From contig JASHPY010000116.1 of assembly GCA_030037855.1 (NCBI GenBank), positions 1 through 37,733 of the forward strand: a DNA stretch of 37,733 nucleotides, in the 5' to 3' direction. This DNA comes from Thermoplasmata archaeon (GTDB lineage Archaea > Thermoplasmatota > Thermoplasmata > Lutacidiplasmatales > UBA184). Numbering within the stretch: position 1 is the first letter of the stretch; the number at the start of each line of letters is the position of its first letter. Positions 7,414 to 37,733 of this stretch are shown in pieces. The position numbers were made by a program, and so were the translations under genes. Below the pieces are notes generated by a model. The model was given only the letters and a program-made list of their open reading frames with translations. It searched no databases and was not told the origin of the DNA.

Positions 7414-8694
7414 TCACGCCGGGCGCGCCGTCGGACGCGCCGGCAATGGGTAGCGCAGGATCGCGGCGATCCCCTGGAACCCCTTCGCCAGCATCTCTCC
7501 TTCCTCGCTCTCGGTCGAGACTAGGCGGACGGTCCCGTTGGACTCCACCGCGCGACGGAAGAGCCCCTCGACGTAGTCTTCGGACGAGAGCTCGACCAGA
7601 CTGCGCTGCCCGCAGTTCGGGCACGCACCGTCGAGCACGGCGTCGACCTCGGCGTCCGGGAGGGTCCGGGTGAACTCCGTCTGGCAGGCAGTGCAGCGGA
7701 ACGCGACGCGCCGGCGCCGGAGCCCCTCCGACACGAGGAGCGTGTCGACCGAGCCGAGCTCGAGCGCCCGTTGGACGTCCGCCTCGCCGTACGCGGCGAG
7801 ACCGGTGTCGCCCCTTCGGATCTCGCCGAGCAATCGCTGGACGAGGCGCTTCTCCTCCGTGATGTCGAGCCCGTGGAGGGTCTGGGTCGCCCGCTCGACG
7901 AGCTCCTTCAGCCCGTACTCGTCCGTGTAGCCGGTGTCGAACAGCGGCTGGACGACCTTCTGCTGGAGCTCGTGGTGGAGGTACGCCTCCTTGTAGAAGT
8001 ACTCCTTCGTCGCCCCCGGTCCGCCGAGAAGGATCCCCTTCAGCGTCTCCTTACGGGGGAGGAACAGCTCGCCGGCCATCTCGCCGACCTTCACGAAGAA
8101 CTCGTGGGCGGCGTGCTCGATCAGCCGCTCGAAGCGGTGCGCCGACTGGCCGCCCCGACCGTGCTTGCTCGGCACGAGCGACTGGCGGTTCTTGAGCGGC
8201 TCGACGCGCTTGCCGCGCAGGAGCCCGAGCGTCGCCTCCGCGCGGTCCATGACGATCAGCCCCCAGACGTCCGGCTCGTGGACCATCGCGAGGAGCGGGT
8301 CGAGGAAGAACGTCGAGTCGCAGCGGTACAGGTACGTGTTCAGTGTCTCGGGCGGCTCGACGATGAACGTCACGGACTCCGACTTGTCGGCCCCCACCGC
8401 CTTCGAGCCGACGAAGAACGCGACCCCGTTCTTCGGCGACTCGCGGAACTGCCGGACGCGCCCCATCAGCGAGTCGATCGCCCACATCACGTTCTTGCGG
8501 GTCGTCCGGCTCTTGATGTTCGAACTCTGCGCGTACTCGTTCCGCAGGTAGGACATCACGTCCGAGATCTGCCGGCCCGGCGGCACGTAGAGGCTGACGA
8601 GCTCGGTCGCCCGGCCCTTGACCGACGCGATCTCATCCAGCTTCCGCTGGAACGAGTACCGCGCGAGCTGGAGGTCGCCGCTGGGGGCGCTCAT
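7414..8694 (-). CDS. prf1: peptide chain release factor aRF1
   Basis: This 426-residue protein is archaeal/eukaryotic-type class I release factor. It recognises all three stop codons and triggers peptidyl-tRNA hydrolysis on the ribosome. Domain 1 carries the codon-recognition NIKS motif at residues 59-62. Domain 2 carries the catalytic GGQ at 181-183 (context GRGGQSAHRF). Domain 3 contains a zinc-ribbon insert with CTAC and CPNC pairs, as in the archaeal proteins. The length is normal. A CTTTAG box about 26 bases upstream of the ATG indicates a leaderless transcript. The gene stands alone, convergent with an exoprotein gene. Confidence 0.97.
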   Translation of the reverse strand: MSAPSGDLQLARYSFQRKLDEIASVKGRATELVSLYVPPGRQISDVMSYLRNEYAQSSNIKSRTTRKNVMWAIDSLMGRVRQFRESPKNGVAFFVGSKAVGADKSESVTFIVEPPETLNTYLYRCDSTFFLDPLLAMVHEPDVWGLIVMDRAEATLGLLRGKRVEPLKNRQSLVPSKHGRGGQSAHRFERLIEHAAHEFFVKVGEMAGELFLPRKETLKGILLGGPGATKEYFYKEAYLHHELQQKVVQPLFDTGYTDEYGLKELVERATQTLHGLDITEEKRLVQRLLGEIRRGDTGLAAYGEADVQRALELGSVDTLLVSEGLRRRRVAFRCTACQTEFTRTLPDAEVDAVLDGACPNCGQRSLVELSSEDYVEGLFRRAVESNGTVRLVSTESEEGEMLAKGFQGIAAILRYPLPARPTARPA

Positions 8695-8718
8695 GCGGCG
8701 CCCCCTACGGCCGGCGCA

Positions 8719-8724
8719 CTAAAG
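8719..8724 (-). promoter_or_regulatory. TATA-like box of prf1
   Basis: CTTTAG on the minus strand centred about 26 bases before the prf1 ATG. This implies a leaderless message. Confidence 0.4.
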
Positions 8725-8780
8725 GCCGACGGCTCGACCGGGAACCCACCCGGACGGCGCCCGTGCCCGGGGCGGCGGAG

Positions 8781-9098
8781 TCAGAGGAGCGCGCGAACGT
8801 GCTCGTCGATGACCGCTTCCGGATACGCCCCGACGATCCGGTCGACGAGCTTCCCCTGCTTGTAGAACAGGAGGGTCGGGATGCTCATGATCCCGAGCAT
8901 GCCGGCCTTCTCGCCGTTGTCGTCCGAGTTCATCTTGCCGAACGCGACCTTCCCCTTGTACCGCTCGCTCAACTTGTCGACGATCGGAGAGACCATCCGG
9001 CACGGCCCGCACCAGGGAGCCCAGACGTCGACGACCACCGCGGTGTTCTCCTGCGCGAACTTGTCGAAGTTGGCCCCGCCGACTTCCTGAACGGCCAT
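8781..9098 (-). CDS. trxA: thioredoxin
   Basis: This 105-residue protein is a classical thioredoxin. It has the WAPWCGPC active site (redox Cys30 and Cys33), the buried Asp in VVVDVWAPW and the cis-proline in SIPTLLFYKQG. It reduces disulfides in cytosolic proteins and is itself reduced by a thioredoxin reductase, which is not in this window. The frame is open to a GTG at 9125, but a TTTAATA box at 9131-9137 lies only a few bases before it, and the ATG at 9098 fits both the transcription start near 9108 and the usual thioredoxin N-terminus. It is divergent from the methyltransferase gene. Confidence 0.95.
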   Translation of the reverse strand: MAVQEVGGANFDKFAQENTAVVVDVWAPWCGPCRMVSPIVDKLSERYKGKVAFGKMNSDDNGEKAGMLGIMSIPTLLFYKQGKLVDRIVGAYPEAVIDEHVRALL

Positions 9099-9130
9099 AG
9101 AAGGTCCCCGGTTCTTCGAGCGCACGGGGC

Positions 9131-9137
9131 TATTAAA
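9131..9137 (-). promoter_or_regulatory. TATA box of trxA
   Basis: TTTAATA on the minus strand. Transcription would start near 9108, ten bases before the ATG at 9098. This rules out the longer GTG start at 9125. Confidence 0.6.
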
Positions 9138-9254
9138 TCACTTGTGCACGGCGACGCCACCAGCGCACGCACGACGGGTCCGGCGGCCGCCGGCGGCGCC
9201 CCGCGCGGGCGCCCCGCCATCAGGTTCATACCGACCGACGCCTATTCCGGAGAC

Positions 9255-10067
9255 GTGACGCCGGTCCACGGCGGAGCCGGCTCGCTGCGACCGACCCTCG
9301 AAACGGTCGGAGGTTCGGGCGAGGCCGTTCCAGCGTACCTCCCGCGCACGTCCCGTCGCGCGTCGCTCCTGACCCCGGCCGCCCGCAAGGGGATCCGCCA
9401 GCGGATGCTCTTGCTCCGGCAGGCGGCGCTCGACCGCATCGCCCGGCTGACGCGGGTGTCGGAGGCCGACCTGCAGAGGTACCGACGCGATCTGCGGGCG
9501 AGCGGTCTGCCCGACACGCTCCTCGAACGGGGGGCCGGCCTCGCGTTCACGCGGGAGCTTCCCCAGGGCGCACTTCTCTACCTCCTGGTGCGCGCGGGCC
9601 GCCCGCGTACCGTGATCGAGACCGGCGTTCGGCCCGGCTACTCGACCGCGTGGTTGCTCGCCGGGCTCGCCGACAACGGCTTCGGTGCGCTCACGTCCCT
9701 CGGGCCGGGTCCGGTCGCCGGCCGGTCGACCGGCGTCCACGACGTCGGGGTCGGGCAGTTCGTGCCGCCGACGCTGCGCTCGCGCTGGACCCTCGCGCTC
9801 GGGAACACCCCGGACCGGGTCCGGGAGCTCCTGAGCGCCGCCGGTCAGGTCGACCTGTTCCTCTACGACAACGGTCCCGAGCTCGCCCGGGCCCGGTTCG
9901 AGCTGCGCGCGGCGTGGGAGACGCTCGCCCCGACCGGCGTGCTGCTCGCGCACCACGTGGAGGCGAACGACGCCTGGCGGGAGCTGTGCGCCCGCCAGGG
10001 TCTGCCGCCGCAACTGCTCGACCCCGGACCGCCGCCGATGGGGGCGCTCGGCGTGCGCGGCGGCTGA
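9255..10067 (+). CDS. class I SAM-dependent methyltransferase-like protein
   Basis: This 270-residue protein has a helical N-terminal region (residues 35-110) followed by a Rossmann-like core. Motif I is VIETGVRPGYST at about 120-131, followed by a later VDLFLYDNGPEL strand and VLLAHHVEAND. This layout resembles the methyltransferase_24/class I family in which motif I reads E-x-G-x-x-x-G-x-S. Methyl transfer from S-adenosylmethionine to an unknown acceptor is the likely activity. The GTG at 9255 is chosen because TTCATA at 9225-9230 places transcription start on that codon. It is convergent with moaB, with seven bases between the stop codons. Confidence 0.75.
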   Translation: MTPVHGGAGSLRPTLETVGGSGEAVPAYLPRTSRRASLLTPAARKGIRQRMLLLRQAALDRIARLTRVSEADLQRYRRDLRASGLPDTLLERGAGLAFTRELPQGALLYLLVRAGRPRTVIETGVRPGYSTAWLLAGLADNGFGALTSLGPGPVAGRSTGVHDVGVGQFVPPTLRSRWTLALGNTPDRVRELLSAAGQVDLFLYDNGPELARARFELRAAWETLAPTGVLLAHHVEANDAWRELCARQGLPPQLLDPGPPPMGALGVRGG

Positions 10068-26587: not shown

Positions 26588-27859
26588 ATGGGGGCGCGCC
26601 CGCCTCGTACGGTCGTGGAGGAGGCCGAGGTCCTCGTCGTCGGCGGCGGGCCGGCCGGGAGTACGGCCGCCCGCGGGCTCGCGGAGCGGGGGCACGACGT
26701 GCTCGTGCTCGAGGAGCACGCGCGGATCGGCCTGCCGGTCCAGTGCGCGGGACTGGTCTCCCAGCGGGTGCTCGACCTCGCCGCTTCGACCTCGTTCGTC
26801 CGCACGTCGGTTCGTGGCGCGACCGTCTTCGGCCCGAGCCTCGGGTGCGTCGCGTTCAAGGCCGCCGAGCCGCGTGCGTTCGTGATCGACCGCAGCGGAC
26901 TCGACATCTACCTCGCCGACCGCGCGGCCCGTTCGGGTGCGCGGTTCCGTACCGCCACCCGGTTCGACGGGATCGTCTCTCGAGGGCCGGAGCGTACGGT
27001 CGTGCGCGCGACCGGCGCGGACGGCACCTCCCTCGAGATCGGTGCGAAGCTCGTCGTCGGGGCGGACGGCGTGTCGAGCGCGGTCGCCCGGGCGTTCCGC
27101 CTGCGGCGGCCGGTGGAGATCCTACCGGCGTTCGAGGCGGAGTTCCCGAAGAGCCCCGGTGACGCCGAGCAGGTCGAGGTCTACCTCGGCCGAACGTTCG
27201 CGCCGGGCCTCTTCGGCTGGTGGATCCCCGACGGGGCGGGCGGCGCCCGGGTCGGCGTCGCGGCGGACGCGGACGGAACCAGCGCCCGGGTCTATTTCGA
27301 CCACCTGGTCGACTACCTCGCGAAGCGGTTCGGGGAGCGCCTCGCGAACCCGACCGCCTACCTCGTTTCGGGGATCCCGATCGGTACGGTTCCGAAGACC
27401 CACGGTCCGGGCGTGCTCTTGGTCGGCGACGCGGCCGCGCAGGTGAAGCCGCTCTCGGGAGGGGGGATCTTCGCCGGCATGCGGTGCGCCGAGATCCTCT
27501 CGGACGTCGCCCACGACGCGCTCGCGCGGAACGACCTCTCCGAGGCCGCCCTCGCCGAATACGACCGGCGGTGGCACGCCGAGCTCGGCGAGGAGTTCCG
27601 CCGCGCGCTCTACCTCCGACGGCTGTTCGCGAGGCTCTCCGACCCGGACCTCGACGGCATCATCGCCGCGCTGCAGGGAGCGGAGCTCACCGAGACGATC
27701 GTCGCGTTCGGCGACATCGACTTCCCGACGCACGTCGCGCGTCGGTTGCTCCGTCAGTCGCCGTCCCTCGTGCGCCTCTTGCCGAAGGCGCTCGGCGCGT
27801 GGTGGTCGTCCGAGCCGTCCTTCCCGACGCCGGACCTCGACGAGGGCCCCCGGAAGTAG
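26588..27859 (+). CDS. geranylgeranyl reductase family flavoprotein
   Basis: This 423-residue FAD protein is of the archaeal digeranylgeranylglycerophospholipid reductase type, which saturates isoprenoid side chains of membrane lipids. The FAD-binding GGGPAGSTAARGLAERG segment starts near residue 18 and is followed by EEHARIGLPVQCAGLVS, the typical PxxCxG-like loop. GADGVSSAVAR and GDAAAQVKPLSGGGIFAGM are further signatures. The C-terminal helical part is present and length is normal. The last 106 bases overlap the convergent exoprotein gene at 27754-28554. Confidence 0.9.
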   Translation: MGARPPRTVVEEAEVLVVGGGPAGSTAARGLAERGHDVLVLEEHARIGLPVQCAGLVSQRVLDLAASTSFVRTSVRGATVFGPSLGCVAFKAAEPRAFVIDRSGLDIYLADRAARSGARFRTATRFDGIVSRGPERTVVRATGADGTSLEIGAKLVVGADGVSSAVARAFRLRRPVEILPAFEAEFPKSPGDAEQVEVYLGRTFAPGLFGWWIPDGAGGARVGVAADADGTSARVYFDHLVDYLAKRFGERLANPTAYLVSGIPIGTVPKTHGPGVLLVGDAAAQVKPLSGGGIFAGMRCAEILSDVAHDALARNDLSEAALAEYDRRWHAELGEEFRRALYLRRLFARLSDPDLDGIIAALQGAELTETIVAFGDIDFPTHVARRLLRQSPSLVRLLPKALGAWWSSEPSFPTPDLDEGPRK

Positions 27860-28554
27860 ACGTACGCCCCCGCGCCGACGAAGATCGCGGCCGCGACCAG
27901 CACGCCCCCGAGCACCCACGGGAACGACGACGACGAGACGACGATCGCGGTCTCGGGAAGCACCCCCGAGACACCGAGGACCGTCAGGTTGAGGGTCGCG
28001 CTCCCGTTCGGGAGCTCGGTCGCGGCGGCCCACGTGCTCGCGTTGAACCAGCCGCGCGAGTCGAGCAGGTACGACGTTCCGTTCGACTCGAACGCGAGCG
28101 CGGTACGGACCGCGAACGCTCCGTTCGGGGTCGACGCCGAGGTCGTCACGCCGACCGAACCCGGCACGACCTCGCCGTGCGCGAGCGCCCCGATCGCGAC
28201 CCCGACCGAGCCGCCCGAGCTCGTCGTGTTCGAGAGCACGGGCGCCCCCACGACCGTGATCGTCGCGGTCGCGTTCCCGGGGAAACCGTTGAAGGCGTAG
28301 ATCTGGAGCGTCAGCACCGCGCCCGAGATCGGTGCCGGGAGCGGGTCGCCGACCGAGAAGGCGATCGTACCCGAGCTCCCCGGCACGACGCTCGGCGCGC
28401 TCAGGTTCCCGAGGAACCCCCGGTCGTCGGCGATCGGCAGCGGCGGGTACCCTGCGCCGTACGCCGCTCCCACGCCGACGGCGCCCGCGAGAGCGAGCGC
28501 CACGACCACGATCGAGGCGACCCGGAGCGCGACGCTCGCCGGGGGCCTACTCAC
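27754..28554 (-). CDS. membrane-anchored exoprotein, third gene of the BlaI operon
   Basis: This 266-residue protein has an N-terminal signal or anchor helix (ALRVASIVVVALALAGAVGVG), a beta-rich ectodomain of about 170 residues with many N-x-S/T sites, and a C-terminal membrane helix at about 210-234, then a basic tail. No domain is recognised. The GTG start overlaps the stop of the metallopeptidase gene by eight bases and is preceded by GGAGGAGCT, so translation is coupled. Its C-terminal 106 bases overlap the geranylgeranyl reductase gene on the other strand. It could be a substrate or sensor partner of the peptidase (inference). Confidence 0.72.
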   Translation of the reverse strand: MSRPPASVALRVASIVVVALALAGAVGVGAAYGAGYPPLPIADDRGFLGNLSAPSVVPGSSGTIAFSVGDPLPAPISGAVLTLQIYAFNGFPGNATATITVVGAPVLSNTTSSGGSVGVAIGALAHGEVVPGSVGVTTSASTPNGAFAVRTALAFESNGTSYLLDSRGWFNASTWAAATELPNGSATLNLTVLGVSGVLPETAIVVSSSSFPWVLGGVLVAAAIFVGAGAYVYFRGPSSRSGVGKDGSDDHHAPSAFGKRRTRDGD

Positions 28555-29443
28555 CGAGCTCCTCCGGGAACCGCCCGCTCTCCGCGAGCGCGACGAGTTG
28601 CCGGATCCGCTCGGTCGTCTGCTGGCGCCCGCGTCGTCCCCCGGTGCCGAGCAGGCCCGACGCCGGCCCGATCCGCGGCCCGCCGTCCGCGCTCGCTTTG
28701 TAGAGCGCGCGGGCGAGCGCGCGGGGACGCCGCGTCATCTCCACCGCGTCCGCGTCCGCCCGGAACTCCTCGCGCTCGGTCAGGCGGTTCGCGAGGACCG
28801 CGAGGATCGGGTCCCAGCGCGCCATGCGCGACAGCGTGCGGAAGAAGGTGAGGTACCGACCGTCGAGCTCGCGGAGGTGACCGAGCTCGTGCGCGACCAC
28901 GGCCTCGCGCTCGGCCGCCGACAGGCGCTCGAGGAGACCGTCCGAGAGCAGGACCACGTCGCGGCGGTGGACGAGCGGCGCCCGGCCGAGCTCGAACAGC
29001 GTGAACGAGAACGCGTCGGCGCGCGGTGACCGGAACGCGAGGAGCGTCGTCGGGGTCGGAGGGCGCGGGAGTCGTTCCGGCCACTCGAGCTCGCTCGACC
29101 GCTGGAGCGCGAGGAACCCGCGTCCGACGACCTGGCTGAGGAGGAACGCGGTGAAGAAGATCGCGAACGCCCCGAGCGCGCCGAGCAGCCAGAGGAGGAC
29201 GAACTGCGGCTCGAAAATGATCTCGGGAGCGCGCATGAACCGGACGGCCGCGTTCCATCCGCCGGCGGAGACCAGCCACGCGAGACCGGTGGTCGCGAAC
29301 ACCGCCCAGAGCGCGAGGAACACCGCGGCGAGCCGGAAGACGACCGTGGACGTCGAGCGCCGGTAGGCGACCAGGAGGCCAACGCCCACCCCGACCCACG
29401 CGAGGACCGGGATCGAGACGAGCCCGACCAGCGGAGCTACCAT
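28547..29443 (-). CDS. integral membrane metallopeptidase, M48/M56 (BlaR1-like)
   Basis: This 298-residue protein has three membrane helices in the first 110 residues. A cytosolic metallopeptidase domain follows with zinc motif His185-Glu-Leu-Gly-His189 in VVAHELGHLRELD and a third ligand from E226 in the E-x-x-x-D-x-x-A motif EFRADADA. This is the layout of M48/M56 peptidases. A BlaI-family repressor gene lies 17 bases upstream. In bacteria BlaR1-type M56 peptidases cleave or inactivate BlaI/MecI after sensing an external signal. No penicillin-binding sensor domain is present here, so the trigger must differ. The ATG at 29443 is the start consistent with the membrane N-terminus. Confidence 0.88.
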   Translation of the reverse strand: MVAPLVGLVSIPVLAWVGVGVGLLVAYRRSTSTVVFRLAAVFLALWAVFATTGLAWLVSAGGWNAAVRFMRAPEIIFEPQFVLLWLLGALGAFAIFFTAFLLSQVVGRGFLALQRSSELEWPERLPRPPTPTTLLAFRSPRADAFSFTLFELGRAPLVHRRDVVLLSDGLLERLSAAEREAVVAHELGHLRELDGRYLTFFRTLSRMARWDPILAVLANRLTEREEFRADADAVEMTRRPRALARALYKASADGGPRIGPASGLLGTGGRRGRQQTTERIRQLVALAESGRFPEELGE

Positions 29444-29460
29444 CGCGCCTTCCCGTCGCG

Positions 29461-29820
29461 TCAGTCGAGCCCGAGGCGCCGCCGAAGTTCCCGCTCCTCG
29501 GACGGGTCGAGCTTCGCCAGCTCCTCGTTCAGATGGACCACCCCGGCGGGTCCGAACATCGCCACGACGCTCTTCAGCAGATTCTGAAGGTATTTCTGCT
29601 CGACCTCCGCCGGTCGGTAGACGTACCGCTCGCCTCCGCGGCAGGTCTCGCGTCGCCGTCGGACGAGCCCCTTCTGGTGGAGGCGCGTGAGGATGGTCGC
29701 GACCGTCGTGTACGCGACCCGGACGCCGTTCCGCTCGAGCGCCTTGCGCACGTCCCGCGCCGGGGCTTCGCCGAGCCCCCGGAGCGACGAGAGGACCTCG
29801 GTCTCGAGCGAGCCGATCAT
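29461..29820 (-). CDS. BlaI/MecI-family transcriptional repressor
   Basis: This 119-residue protein has an N-terminal winged helix: SLETEVLSSLRGLGEAPARDVRKAL, then TTVATILTRLHQKGLVRRRRE, and the wing RYVYRPAE. A C-terminal helix (QKYLQNLLKSVVAMFG) would dimerise. This is the BlaI/MecI family, whose members are inactivated by proteolysis. The ATG at 29820 fits a TTAAG box about 30 bases upstream. The peptidase gene follows after 17 bases. It leads a three-gene operon and is divergent from the cysteine operon. The cleavage site of known BlaI proteins lies between the two domains; I cannot confirm it here. Confidence 0.9.
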   Translation of the reverse strand: MIGSLETEVLSSLRGLGEAPARDVRKALERNGVRVAYTTVATILTRLHQKGLVRRRRETCRGGERYVYRPAEVEQKYLQNLLKSVVAMFGPAGVVHLNEELAKLDPSEERELRRRLGLD

Positions 29821-29922
29821 GGCCAGCCAAAGATGCCGCACGCCTGCCTTAAGACATCGGGCGCGGGGGAACGAACGAGTACGAACCGGCCGGACCGCGC
29901 GCACGCGCCTTGCGCGGTTCGC

Positions 29923-29955: not shown

Positions 29956-31356
29956 GTGGCCGAACCGACGTCCGGGCCGAGCTCCGTCCTCGACCTGGTG
30001 GGCAACACGCCGCTCGTTCCGCTGCGCCGGGTCACCCACGGGCTCCCCTACCGGGTGCTCGCGAAGCTCGAGTTCCTGAACCCGGGGGGCTCGGTCAAGG
30101 ACCGCATCGGCACGATCATGATCGACGACGCGGAGCGGAAGGGGCTCCTGAAGCCCGGGGGAACGATCGTGGAGGCGACGAGCGGCAACACGGGCGTCGG
30201 GCTCGCGCTCGTCGCGGCCGTCCGGGGGTACCGGGCGGTGTTCGTCCTGCCCGACAAGATGAGCGCGGAGAAGATCCGGCTCCTCAGGTCGTACGGCGCT
30301 CGGGTGGTCGTGACGCCGAGCGGACTTCCGCCCGACCACCCGATGAGCCATTACTCGGTCGCCGCGCGACTGGCGAAGGAGATCCCGGGCGCGTACTATC
30401 CGAACCAGTACGTCAACCAGGGGAATCCGGAGGCCCACTACCGCACGACCGGCCCCGAGATCGACCGCGCGGTCGGCGACGGCCTCGCGGCGGTCGTGGG
30501 GACGGTCGGTACCGGCGGGACGATGAGCGGGATCGGACGGTACTTTCATGAGCACCGGCCCGGGGTCCGGATCGTCGCGGTCGACCCCGCCGGCTCGATC
30601 CTCGGTCACTTCTTCCGCACCCACGAGCTCGGCAAGGCGGTGCCGTACCTCGTCGAGGGGATCGGGGAGGACATGATCCCGCAGTCGATCCACTTCCAGT
30701 ACCTCGACGAGTTCGTCGAGGTCAACGACAGCGAGTCGTTCCACATGGCCCGCCGGCTCGCGCGGGAGGAGGGGCTGTTCGCGGGCGGGTCGTCCGGCGC
30801 GGCGGTCGCCGGGACCGTCCGCTGGCTCGCGAAGCGACCGATCCCGGACGGAGCCACGGTCGTCGTCATCCTGCCCGACTCGGGCGACCGGTACCTCTCG
30901 AAGTTCTACTCGGACGACTGGATGCGCGAGAAGGGCCTCCTCGACATCGGCTCGACCGCGCGGGAGCTGATCGCGCGGAAGTCGGGGACCCCGGCGCTGA
31001 TCTCCGCCGACCCGACGACGGTCGTCTCGGACGCGCTCGCGGTGCTCCGGCATCACGGGATCTCCCAGCTCCCCGTCCTCTCGGGCACGCAGAACGTCGG
31101 GAGCGTGCAGGAGGACGAGATCCTGCGGCGCAGCCTGGCGGACGAGACCGTCCTCGAACGCTCGGTCGCGTCCGTGCTCCAGTCGCCGTTTCCCGAGGTC
31201 AGCGCCGACACCCCGGTGGCGGACGTGCTCCACCGGCTCAAGGAGGAGAAGGTCGTGCTCGTGCGCGACGCGGCGACCGGGACCCTCATCGGGCTCTTGA
31301 CCCGCCATGACCTCGTCGGGTTCCTCTCGGAGCAGGGGGGATCGAATGCGGTTTGA
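29956..31356 (+). CDS. cystathionine beta-synthase-like PLP enzyme with CBS domains
   Basis: This 466-residue protein has a fold-type II PLP domain (1-325) and a C-terminal CBS pair (about 345-460). Lys48 in NPGGSVKDR is the PLP lysine. EATSGNTG and VGTVGTGGTMSGIG are phosphate and substrate loops. GGSSGAAVAGT follows. The CBS pair would sense an adenosyl ligand such as SAM or AMP. It may make cystathionine from serine and homocysteine, or act as a cysteine synthase. The adjacent cystathionine lyase-type gene favours the former. The GTG start is 26 bases after a TATA-like box. It heads a four-gene run. Confidence 0.9.
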   Translation: MAEPTSGPSSVLDLVGNTPLVPLRRVTHGLPYRVLAKLEFLNPGGSVKDRIGTIMIDDAERKGLLKPGGTIVEATSGNTGVGLALVAAVRGYRAVFVLPDKMSAEKIRLLRSYGARVVVTPSGLPPDHPMSHYSVAARLAKEIPGAYYPNQYVNQGNPEAHYRTTGPEIDRAVGDGLAAVVGTVGTGGTMSGIGRYFHEHRPGVRIVAVDPAGSILGHFFRTHELGKAVPYLVEGIGEDMIPQSIHFQYLDEFVEVNDSESFHMARRLAREEGLFAGGSSGAAVAGTVRWLAKRPIPDGATVVVILPDSGDRYLSKFYSDDWMREKGLLDIGSTARELIARKSGTPALISADPTTVVSDALAVLRHHGISQLPVLSGTQNVGSVQEDEILRRSLADETVLERSVASVLQSPFPEVSADTPVADVLHRLKEEKVVLVRDAATGTLIGLLTRHDLVGFLSEQGGSNAV

Positions 31357-35096: not shown

Positions 35097-37733
35097 GTGA
35101 GCCGTCATTTGGGCAGCTCCCCATGCACCGGGGAAGCCGCGCGTGCCCCCGGAAGATGGACCCGACCGCTGTTCGCGGGCCTGATCGTCGTCCTCGTGAT
35201 CGCGAGCGCGACCCTGATGCTCGCCGTCGGCGCGCCGGCGGTCCACCCCGCGACGGCCGCGTCCCCCGCCGCCGCTACGGCGGCGGCCCCCGCGGCGAAC
35301 CCGCCGACCCACGGGGACCTCGTGGTCGCGTCGGGGCAGACCTACACGATCCAGCCGACCGGAGGGGTCCCGACCTACTACCAGGGGGGTAACATCACGG
35401 TCCAGAGCGGCGGCACCCTGATCGTCAAGAACGTGTCGCTGATCTTCGTCGAGTACGTGTCGGACCTCGGCACGCCGATCGTCCGACTCTCCCACATCTA
35501 CCAGTTCCAGGACGCCGGAACCGTCGACATCGTGAACTCGACCGTCACGACCGACGTCGGGATCCTGAACGCCTACGCGAAGCTCAATGTCGAGGTGACC
35601 GGCGCGATGAGCGTCCAGCACTCGGTGCTGGCCTTCCCCGGCTGGATCACCGCCTCCGGGAGTTCCGCGGACCTGACGCTCAACGACTCCTCGCTCACGG
35701 CGAACCCGGCCGTGGTCGGCCTCGGAGGCTCCGAGCCGAGCGCGATCTGGGGCGATACGTCGTACGCGGCTAGCCTGACCGCGACCGGCGGCGCCCACGT
35801 CTACCTGTTCAAGAGCGCCATCAACGACACCTACGCGGACCCGACGAGCACGAACGGCATCCCGAGCACGCTGCCGCTCAACGCGACCGACGTCGCGCTC
35901 GGCGGCGCGGGGGAGAACCTCACGGACCTCGCGACCCCGACCGACTCCGCCAGCCTCGCGCAGGACTACCTGTACTACCCCACGGGAGTCGCCGGCGGCG
36001 AATTCAACATCTACTACAACGACTCCAACCCCGGGCCGACCACGACCACCCTCGACCTCTGGTATCAGGGCACGGAGTACTCCCTCGGGACGGTCGTGCT
36101 CGAGAACGACACGAGCAACGGCCTCCTCACGATCCCGATCCCCGCGGCCCTGACCTCGGCGATCAACGCGGGCGGGATGCTCGGCTACCTCAACAGCACC
36201 GGGAACTTCGGGCTCCCGTCCGCGATCGCGTTCAACTTCTCCGCCGTGACCGCCCCGCTCACGCTCAGCCAGGTCAGCCTCGTGCTGGACCCTCCGCTCG
36301 AGTACAACGTCAACGCGACCGGCGCGGGCACGGTCCTCGTCTCGGCCGACACCCAGTTCAACCTCAACTTCGCCGACGTGCCGGCGAGCCCGCTCTCTCA
36401 GGCCAGCCCGTTCCCGTGGGAGTCGAACAAGCTCCTCCTCACGGACGGTGCGGTCGCCTACCTCGGCAATCTCACCGTGACCGCGTCGGTCCCCGGCGTC
36501 TTCTCGACCTCGGCGGTCCTCACCGACGCCACGAGCACCGCCTGGCTCTACCGGTGGGCGGACTTCAACATCACCAGCTCGACCGACCACGTGAACGTCT
36601 CGGGCGCGCTCGCGAGCGCGTTCTACGCCTACGACGACAGCCAGCTGAACAACGCGACCGTCAACGCCCTCAACGACCTGCCGGCCACGAGCACCCCGCT
36701 CGCGGGCTACGTCGACTACGTGGACGGCCTCCGGGGCGTCACGGCGTACGGCTCGTCCGACATCGGGGGCCAGGCGTACCTTCTACTCGTCTCGAACGAA
36801 CTGAACGCGAGCGACCTCCCGAGCGGCGGATTCCTCGGCGGCTACCACGTCGCCTTCTCGAGCCCGTTCGCGGCCAACGTGACCTGGATCTCCTACTCGG
36901 TGAGCCCGTACCCGACCGGCGTGGCGCTCGGCACGGCGAACTACGGGTCGCCCGACCGGGTGAACGTCGCGATCCCCGTCGCGGCCCCGGTGGTCCGCTT
37001 CGTGACCTACAATGTGCCCACGAGCCCGCTCAGCCTCAACACCCAGTACACGTCGAGCGGGACCATCTTCCTGAACGGCCCCGGCACCGCTTCGATCGTG
37101 GTCACCGCGACCCCGATCGGCGGGATCGGCACCGCCGTGACGATCGCCTCGGACGCGGCGGTCGCCAACGGCTCGTTCCAGTTCAACTGGGCGAATCCGC
37201 TGCCGTTGACCGCCGGCACGTCGTACTCGATCGTCGCGACCGCGACCTACAAGGGCGCGACGGGGAGCTACAACCTCGGCACGTACAGCGTTCCGTCGTC
37301 GACGTCGCCGGTCGGTTTCCTGTTCCAGAAGTTCCTCGGTCTCCCGCTCTGGCTCTGGATCGCGATCGCCGCGGCGGTGGTCGTGGCGATCCTGGTCGTG
37401 CTGATGATCTTCCGGCGCCAGGCCGCCGGTAAGCTCGTCGAGTGCGGGGAGTGCGGGGAGCTGATCCCCGAGGACGCGACCGTCTGTCCGAAGTGCGGCG
37501 CCGAGTTCGAGTCCGACCTCGTCCGTTGCAGCCGGTGCGCCTCGACCATCCCCGCGAATTCGGCGGTCTGCCCCGAGTGCGCCGCGCAGTTGCTCGGCGT
37601 GCCGGGCACCGCGCCCGAGGAGGCCGAGCGGCAGGGCTACCAGGACTTCACCGAGAAGTACCGCGCCGAGGCCAAGAAGGAGCTCGGCGAGAATTACAAC
37701 GAGGGGTCGTTCTGGGACTGGTGGAAGCGCCAG
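35097..37733 (+). CDS. large exoprotein with C-terminal transmembrane helix and cytosolic double zinc ribbon, partial
   Basis: The frame from the GTG at 35097 is open for 879 codons to the right edge and has no stop, so the C-terminus is missing. A signal peptide (PLFAGLIVVLVIASATLMLAVG) and a Pro/Ala/Thr-rich linker precede a beta-rich ectodomain of about 680 residues. It is rich in N-x-S/T sites, and the strand-rich region with GGNITVQSGGTLIVKN suggests a right-handed beta-helix start. A membrane helix lies at about 750-770. The cytosolic tail has two zinc ribbons: Cys783/786 with 797/800, and Cys811/814 with 825/828. A charged segment ending in WDWWKRQ follows. Zinc ribbons behind a membrane anchor suggest contact with a cytosolic partner. 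Confidence 0.8.
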   Translation, partial: MSRHLGSSPCTGEAARAPGRWTRPLFAGLIVVLVIASATLMLAVGAPAVHPATAASPAAATAAAPAANPPTHGDLVVASGQTYTIQPTGGVPTYYQGGNITVQSGGTLIVKNVSLIFVEYVSDLGTPIVRLSHIYQFQDAGTVDIVNSTVTTDVGILNAYAKLNVEVTGAMSVQHSVLAFPGWITASGSSADLTLNDSSLTANPAVVGLGGSEPSAIWGDTSYAASLTATGGAHVYLFKSAINDTYADPTSTNGIPSTLPLNATDVALGGAGENLTDLATPTDSASLAQDYLYYPTGVAGGEFNIYYNDSNPGPTTTTLDLWYQGTEYSLGTVVLENDTSNGLLTIPIPAALTSAINAGGMLGYLNSTGNFGLPSAIAFNFSAVTAPLTLSQVSLVLDPPLEYNVNATGAGTVLVSADTQFNLNFADVPASPLSQASPFPWESNKLLLTDGAVAYLGNLTVTASVPGVFSTSAVLTDATSTAWLYRWADFNITSSTDHVNVSGALASAFYAYDDSQLNNATVNALNDLPATSTPLAGYVDYVDGLRGVTAYGSSDIGGQAYLLLVSNELNASDLPSGGFLGGYHVAFSSPFAANVTWISYSVSPYPTGVALGTANYGSPDRVNVAIPVAAPVVRFVTYNVPTSPLSLNTQYTSSGTIFLNGPGTASIVVTATPIGGIGTAVTIASDAAVANGSFQFNWANPLPLTAGTSYSIVATATYKGATGSYNLGTYSVPSSTSPVGFLFQKFLGLPLWLWIAIAAAVVVAILVVLMIFRRQAAGKLVECGECGELIPEDATVCPKCGAEFESDLVRCSRCASTIPANSAVCPECAAQLLGVPGTAPEEAERQGYQDFTEKYRAEAKKELGENYNEGSFWDWWKRQ

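Follow-up and report, generated by a model that had tools for sequence, protein, structure and literature searches.

A BlaI repressor and a BlaR1-like membrane metallopeptidase in an archaeal operon: a possible proteolytic switch for a membrane-anchored exoprotein

We describe a three-gene operon on contig JASHPY010000116.1 of a Thermoplasmata archaeon, in which a BlaI-type repressor and a BlaR1-like membrane zinc metallopeptidase are encoded together with a membrane-anchored exoprotein. The window that was analysed is the whole contig, 37,733 nucleotides in length, and belongs to a genome of 1.75 Mb in 139 contigs. The interpretation that we favour, with moderate confidence, is that the repressor and the peptidase constitute an archaeal BlaI-M56 proteolytic switch, which regulates the operon that encodes it and in this way determines how much of the exoprotein is made. 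BlaI would bind to a dyad-like element that precedes the TATA box, presumably keeping the operon repressed. The metallopeptidase, whose zinc domain is predicted to be cytosolic, would cut BlaI once it has been activated by a cue from the envelope or membrane, as BlaR1 cuts BlaI directly (PMC9834060); the cut would then allow all three genes to be expressed together. The exoprotein would be the output, in the position held by blaZ or mecA in bacteria, with possible feedback on the peptidase within the membrane. While we infer repression, cleavage and input, the switch is supported by the co-inheritance of the pair, the invariance of the catalytic residues, the near-confinement of the element to the blaI promoter, a BlaR1 fold extending over the first three transmembrane (TM) helices and the protease domain, and the occurrence of BlaI-M56 pairs elsewhere in the Thermoplasmatota.

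Organization of the operon

The first-pass annotation of this DNA had placed three minus-strand open reading frames at 29820-29461 (BlaI), 29443-28547 (peptidase) and 28554-27754 (exoprotein), with 17 bases between the BlaI stop and the peptidase ATG and an overlap of eight bases between the peptidase stop and the exoprotein start (28547..28554, minus strand; GTGAGTAG, with a GTG start). These coordinates and spacings proved exact. In the loci of relatives, for which start codons are inferred, an overlap of exactly 8 bases between the peptidase stop and the exoprotein start is seen in about 26 of 30 cases, and one of 11 bases in three; wherever the flank is long enough in the other loci, about 10-23 bases separate blaI from the peptidase gene. 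Because this gap and the 8-base overlap recur across loci, the layout is beyond chance. Judged by this conservation, the blaI, peptidase and exoprotein genes form a real operon, and the 8-base overlap is likely to couple translation of the exoprotein to that of the peptidase. The operon is interrupted in one genome, G002, where an IS607-looking element (locus L041, about 7500-9480), with what appear by eye to be a TnpA-like recombinase and a TnpB-like protein, splits the peptidase gene from the exoprotein gene.

The repressor and the membrane metallopeptidase

The first gene encodes a BlaI/MecI-type winged-helix repressor of 119 amino acids. It matches PF03965 (6.5e-18; 65.6 bits against a cut-off of 22.6) over residues 2-116, which include the winged helix and the C-terminal region, and its mean column identity over 31 loci is 81%. 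Its top PDB match in a profile search was 2g9w, which we take to be M. tuberculosis BlaI.

The second gene encodes a BlaR1/M56-like (M48/M56) membrane zinc metallopeptidase of 298 amino acids, which matches both PF05569 (M56; 3.4e-8, 33.4 bits against a cut-off of 31) and PF01435 (M48; 4.5e-10, 40.1 bits against a cut-off of 20.3). Three predicted TM helices are followed by a gluzincin domain. TM4 and the beta-lactam-binding sensor of BlaR1, or any other ectodomain, are missing; the protein ends at residue 298, after a helix (residues 270-288) that follows the protease domain. The Pfam matches, the BlaR1-like model described below and this protein end bear out the earlier identification of a BlaI and a HELGH peptidase devoid of a beta-lactam sensor. 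The HELGH zinc motif (residues 185-189; 28877..28891, minus strand) aligns with HEYAH of BlaR1, and in the EEFRAD motif (residues 225-230; 28754..28771, minus strand) E226 and D230 are the equivalents of BlaR1 E242 and D246. H185, E186, H189 and E226 are invariant among 42 sequences (alignment A5), as are E225, A229 and D230 of the EEFRAD motif, and E226 is the probable third zinc ligand. The zinc ligands on which the first-pass proposal of a proteolytic system depended are thus invariant in relatives. D194, the equivalent of BlaR1 Asp210, is also invariant, together with D230, the equivalent of Asp246; mutation of Asp210/Asp246 in B. licheniformis BlaR1 leads to the loss of beta-lactamase induction (PMC9834060). 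The gluzincin domain is predicted to face the cytosol because, by the positive-inside rule, RR and R lie between TM1 and TM2 and basic residues follow TM3.

The predicted model of the peptidase (predicted local distance difference test, pLDDT, 85.6) aligns with the BlaR1 structures 8exq, 8exs and 8exr from residue 10 or 13 to residue 274, covering TM1-3 and the protease domain (Z 9.0 to 11.0 over 204-217 residues, root-mean-square deviation 4.2 to 5.3 Å). BepA and Ste24-type proteases match it structurally about as well as BlaR1. This similarity accords with an explanation that we consider unlikely, namely that an HtpX-like quality-control protease is co-regulated with an envelope protein by BlaI, a simple autorepressor that is left uncut, in a stress or maintenance operon. 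HtpX and Ste24 (M48) also have a HExxH...E gluzincin domain with membrane helices; PF01435 scores above PF05569 and over its threshold, and among PDB sequences HtpX matched best (E 3.4e-6, vs 1.8e-3 for BlaR1). The archaeal peptidase, however, is strictly paired with BlaI, the two being co-inherited and jointly absent as described below, its M56 match is also over threshold, and its structural match to BlaR1 takes in the TM1-3 arrangement. Against the NCBIfam HtpX equivalog models it reached at best 35.6 bits, under their cut-offs of 245-422.

Distribution and history of the pair

We searched for BlaI, the peptidase and the exoprotein, using profiles built from 31-33 loci, in an order-level sample of 106 genomes from nine genera, and for the exoprotein also in a class-level sample of 250 genomes from 85 genera. 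Most of these genomes are metagenome-assembled and incomplete, so that absence from a single genome weighs little and absence from a whole genus more. In the order, the peptidase was found (E<1e-20) in 82 genomes and BlaI in 80, all of which also have the peptidase; the two genomes with the peptidase only, G011 and G122, gave partial peptidase matches only. The BlaI-peptidase pair occurs in four genera of one family (g1, g25, g28 and g29), and the profile search of the 106 genomes found it neither in g24, g26 and g27 nor in the other two families of the sample. By comparison, the exoprotein was found in 92 of the 106 genomes and in all nine genera of the order, and in 149 genomes and 44 genera of the class. 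Thus, the co-occurrence beyond close strains that had been proposed for all three genes holds for BlaI and the peptidase, but not for the exoprotein as an obligate partner, as it is present throughout the class without them. Since it is class-wide and retained where the pair is gone (g24, g26, g27 and genome G088), the exoprotein is, on this distribution, not dedicated to the pair, and is older and far wider.

The pair is cleanly absent from g26 and g27, where the exoprotein gene comes directly after the cysteine synthase gene. In G088, a member of the window's own genus, the pair is gone and the exoprotein is intact, and a readable scrap of blaI (VEHKYLVNVLRRAV...) is left between the gene for cysteine synthase and that for the exoprotein (locus L136, about 8800-9130). 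Genus g25 carries the pair at the same place, yet trees of neighbouring genes put it together with g26 and g27, and a one-gene tree with g24 as well; all of these trees are of genes of this one region, rooted on few outgroups or at the midpoint. Because the pair-bearing g25 groups with pair-less genera, and because of the blaI scrap in G088, the simplest reading is that the pair would have been present in the family ancestor and was then repeatedly lost as a unit. An independent gain in g25 appears less likely.

The region of about 20 kb around the operon is syntenic throughout the genus, as would be expected if the three genes were mere neighbours in a conserved block, with no functional link. 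We regard this as hardly credible, given that exactly BlaI and the peptidase are absent from an otherwise intact block, that the coupling is conserved and that a promoter element is tied to blaI.

A candidate operator upstream of blaI

A conserved 18-bp dyad-like element, with the consensus GTWCGWACNNGTHCGTTC, lies upstream of blaI, and in the window it reads GTTCGTACTCGTTCGTTC (29869..29886, minus strand). The promoter of the operon contains a TATA-like box, CTTAAGG (29847..29853, minus strand), about 27 bases upstream of the ATG, which is conserved in the alignment of upstream regions. The element is present with no more than two mismatches in 26 of 40 upstream regions, and the distance from it to the TATA-like box downstream is 15 bp in every one of them. 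We call it dyad-like, rather than a perfect palindrome, because only five of its nine mirror pairs are mostly complementary (in at least 21 of these 26 sequences); the rest are variable or mismatched. In some lineages that lack the consensus, this position is occupied by related half-sites arranged as perfect inverted repeats, such as CACGAACGGTCCCGTTCGTG (L022) and ACGTACGGTCCCGTACGT (L124).

A set of 78 congeneric genomes contains 34 exact copies of the element, and comparison of their positions with those of BlaI places 30 of them directly upstream of blaI. As a control, the pattern read backward has no copy in the same 78 genomes. In the intergenic regions of the pair-less genera g24, g26 and g27 the best match has six mismatches, no better than shuffled sequence; that of G088 has four, against a mean of 5.6 and a minimum of four for shuffled sequence. 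The operator whose existence the first-pass annotation had suggested checking is hence represented by a conserved candidate at blaI, which we regard as the candidate BlaI operator. Its sequence is unlike that of the bacterial BlaI/MecI operators, which are of the TACA/TGTA type. With one operator, one operon and one conserved exoprotein, the locus looks like a one-target system; a wider BlaI regulon was considered and rejected, as only four of the 34 exact copies lie outside the blaI promoter. These four are at G027:C13:10016, G100:C16:11904, G018:C3:267699 and G108:C103:40050, two of them having GTTCGAACGGGTCCGTTC in common.

Several observations weigh against the proteolytic switch. No equivalent of the canonical Asn-Phe cleavage site could be assigned in the archaeal BlaI, where the profile alignment ended before the position of S. 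aureus Asn101-Phe102. In about one third of the upstream regions the element has diverged or cannot be recognised. Where it is present, its location, at a constant distance upstream of the TATA box and B recognition element (BRE), would fit an activator as well as a repressor. The family signals of the peptidase are split between M48 and M56, with HtpX at the head of the PDB sequence matches. Finally, translational coupling equally fits a stoichiometric complex of the peptidase and the exoprotein.

The exoprotein

The third gene encodes a type I membrane protein with a signal peptide, an Ig/NEW3-like beta-sandwich ectodomain, a C-terminal TM helix and a short basic tail; its predicted model (pLDDT 87.5) comprises the beta-sandwich and the single C-terminal TM helix. 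The protein of the window has no match in Pfam, and 15 of 50 relatives match PF10633 (NEW3). In the best-Z list its structural matches are generic Ig-like domains. Homology to TRAP alpha/beta of the translocon, chains of which are among the Foldseek top 50 and have the type I anatomy and the Ig-like sandwich in common with the exoprotein, was rejected; in 18 genomes no listed match of the TRAP_beta and TRAP_alpha profiles (PF05753 and PF03896) falls on the exoprotein locus, and the fold match is generic. The exoprotein belongs to a class-wide uncharacterised type I family (for example, L194-L212), and in most members outside the window's family the cytosolic tail is basic and about 30-45 residues long. 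The last approximately 35 residues of the window exoprotein (27754-27859) are antisense to the 3′ end of a convergent geranylgeranyl-reductase-like (GGR) gene (26588-27859, plus strand), and in many relatives the exoprotein ends at about residue 243.

The first-pass annotation had proposed that the exoprotein is either the external sensor of the system or the substrate that is cleaved. Both roles are less supported now, since the exoprotein predates the pair, has a wider distribution and persists in genomes from which the pair is absent. That the peptidase cleaves it, in regulated proteolysis at or near the membrane, seems very improbable to us. The apparent co-translation with the peptidase would fit such a role. 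The protease domain, however, is predicted to be cytosolic and the cytosolic tail of the exoprotein is short, conservation of this tail is confounded by the antisense GGR coding sequence, and the exoprotein is retained without the peptidase.

A role as sensor deserves more weight, though we still consider it doubtful. The system could be a split BlaR1-like receptor, in which the exoprotein supplies the ectodomain and the fourth membrane helix in trans, senses the envelope and controls the BlaI-cutting peptidase; an ancient Thermoplasmata envelope protein would then have been recruited as both trans-acting sensor and output of an ectodomain-less BlaR1-like protease. The match to BlaR1 is confined to TM1-3 and the protease domain, and the exoprotein offers one TM helix and an ectodomain. 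Its 8-base coupling to the peptidase is conserved in most loci and it has conserved juxtamembrane residues. Furthermore, we detected no exoprotein homologue next to other BlaI-M56 pairs of the Thermoplasmatota (L149-L154), whose genes are likewise adjacent or overlapping. Most M56 proteins of those pairs are predicted to have four TM helices, and carry an extracytoplasmic loop joining TM2 to TM3 and, past the final helix, a short tail. Two predicted architectures are thus seen in the phylum, one of four helices with its own outside parts and one of three helices with a co-translated exoprotein. The extracytoplasmic loops of L149-L154 (genomes G217, G262, G254, G245, G230 and G330) are highly varied in length and sequence.

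On the other hand, the presence of the exoprotein throughout the class without the pair, and its retention after pair loss, indicate that serving the peptidase is not its main job. In addition, the M. tuberculosis BlaI-BlaR system (Rv1846c-Rv1845c) has a BlaR without an extracellular sensor domain (PMC5473688), and therefore the missing domain does not in itself require a separate sensor protein. We thus return to the proteolytic switch, in which the exoprotein is more probably a controlled output than a purpose-made sensor.

Relation to known systems and implications

The archaeal locus resembles BlaI-BlaR1 of S. aureus and B. licheniformis, and also MecI-MecR1, in that a BlaI-type repressor adjoins a membrane gluzincin. 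The predicted fold of TM1-3 and protease is that of S. aureus BlaR1, and the HExxH motif, third Glu and Asp210/Asp246 equivalents are all kept. It differs in having neither TM4, nor the penicillin-binding protein (PBP)-like sensor, nor a beta-lactamase or PBP target, and in having an archaeal exoprotein as the presumed output. The mycobacterial system is bacterial and regulates blaC and respiratory genes; a co-translated exoprotein is not described in the available part of that source (PMC5473688). Our literature search found no report of archaeal BlaI-M56 systems, which is not proof of their absence.

BlaI-BlaR1 is the textbook penicillin-sensing switch. A family-conserved archaeal version, in cells without murein and without the sensor domain, suggests that the core of repressor and membrane protease is a more general envelope-sensing module, of which beta-lactam sensing would be one use. 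In the archaeal version, a DNA control site of its own apparently links the protease-repressor switch to a single envelope protein, and the locus illustrates how a regulatory pair may be gained by or lost from a standing gene. If the receptor is in fact split, the operon would constitute a feedback loop that is complete in itself, in an organism that has no murein. The one-target layout makes the logic testable with three genes and one promoter.

Neighbouring genes

A cysteine synthase/CBS gene (29956..31356, plus strand; PF00291 and PF00571) is divergent from blaI and has the intergenic promoter region in common with it. It adjoins the operon in most loci of the family and lies more than 1 kb off in L034/L035. 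This broken adjacency led us to reject a required functional tie between the operon and the divergent cysteine genes, and an effect through the shared promoter region is possible. On the other side, the antisense 3′ overlap of the convergent exoprotein and GGR genes (27754..27859, both strands) is found again across genera; of the distant class members examined, about half have the convergent gene pair itself. An Rfam scan of the window gave one tRNA alone and no other RNA element. ARAGORN additionally called a 92-base tRNA-His at 909-1000, within a long open reading frame and lacking Rfam support, which is probably spurious. Near the contig end, at 35196-37733, the window encodes a large exported protein with a zinc-ribbon region, the position of which is conserved across the genus.

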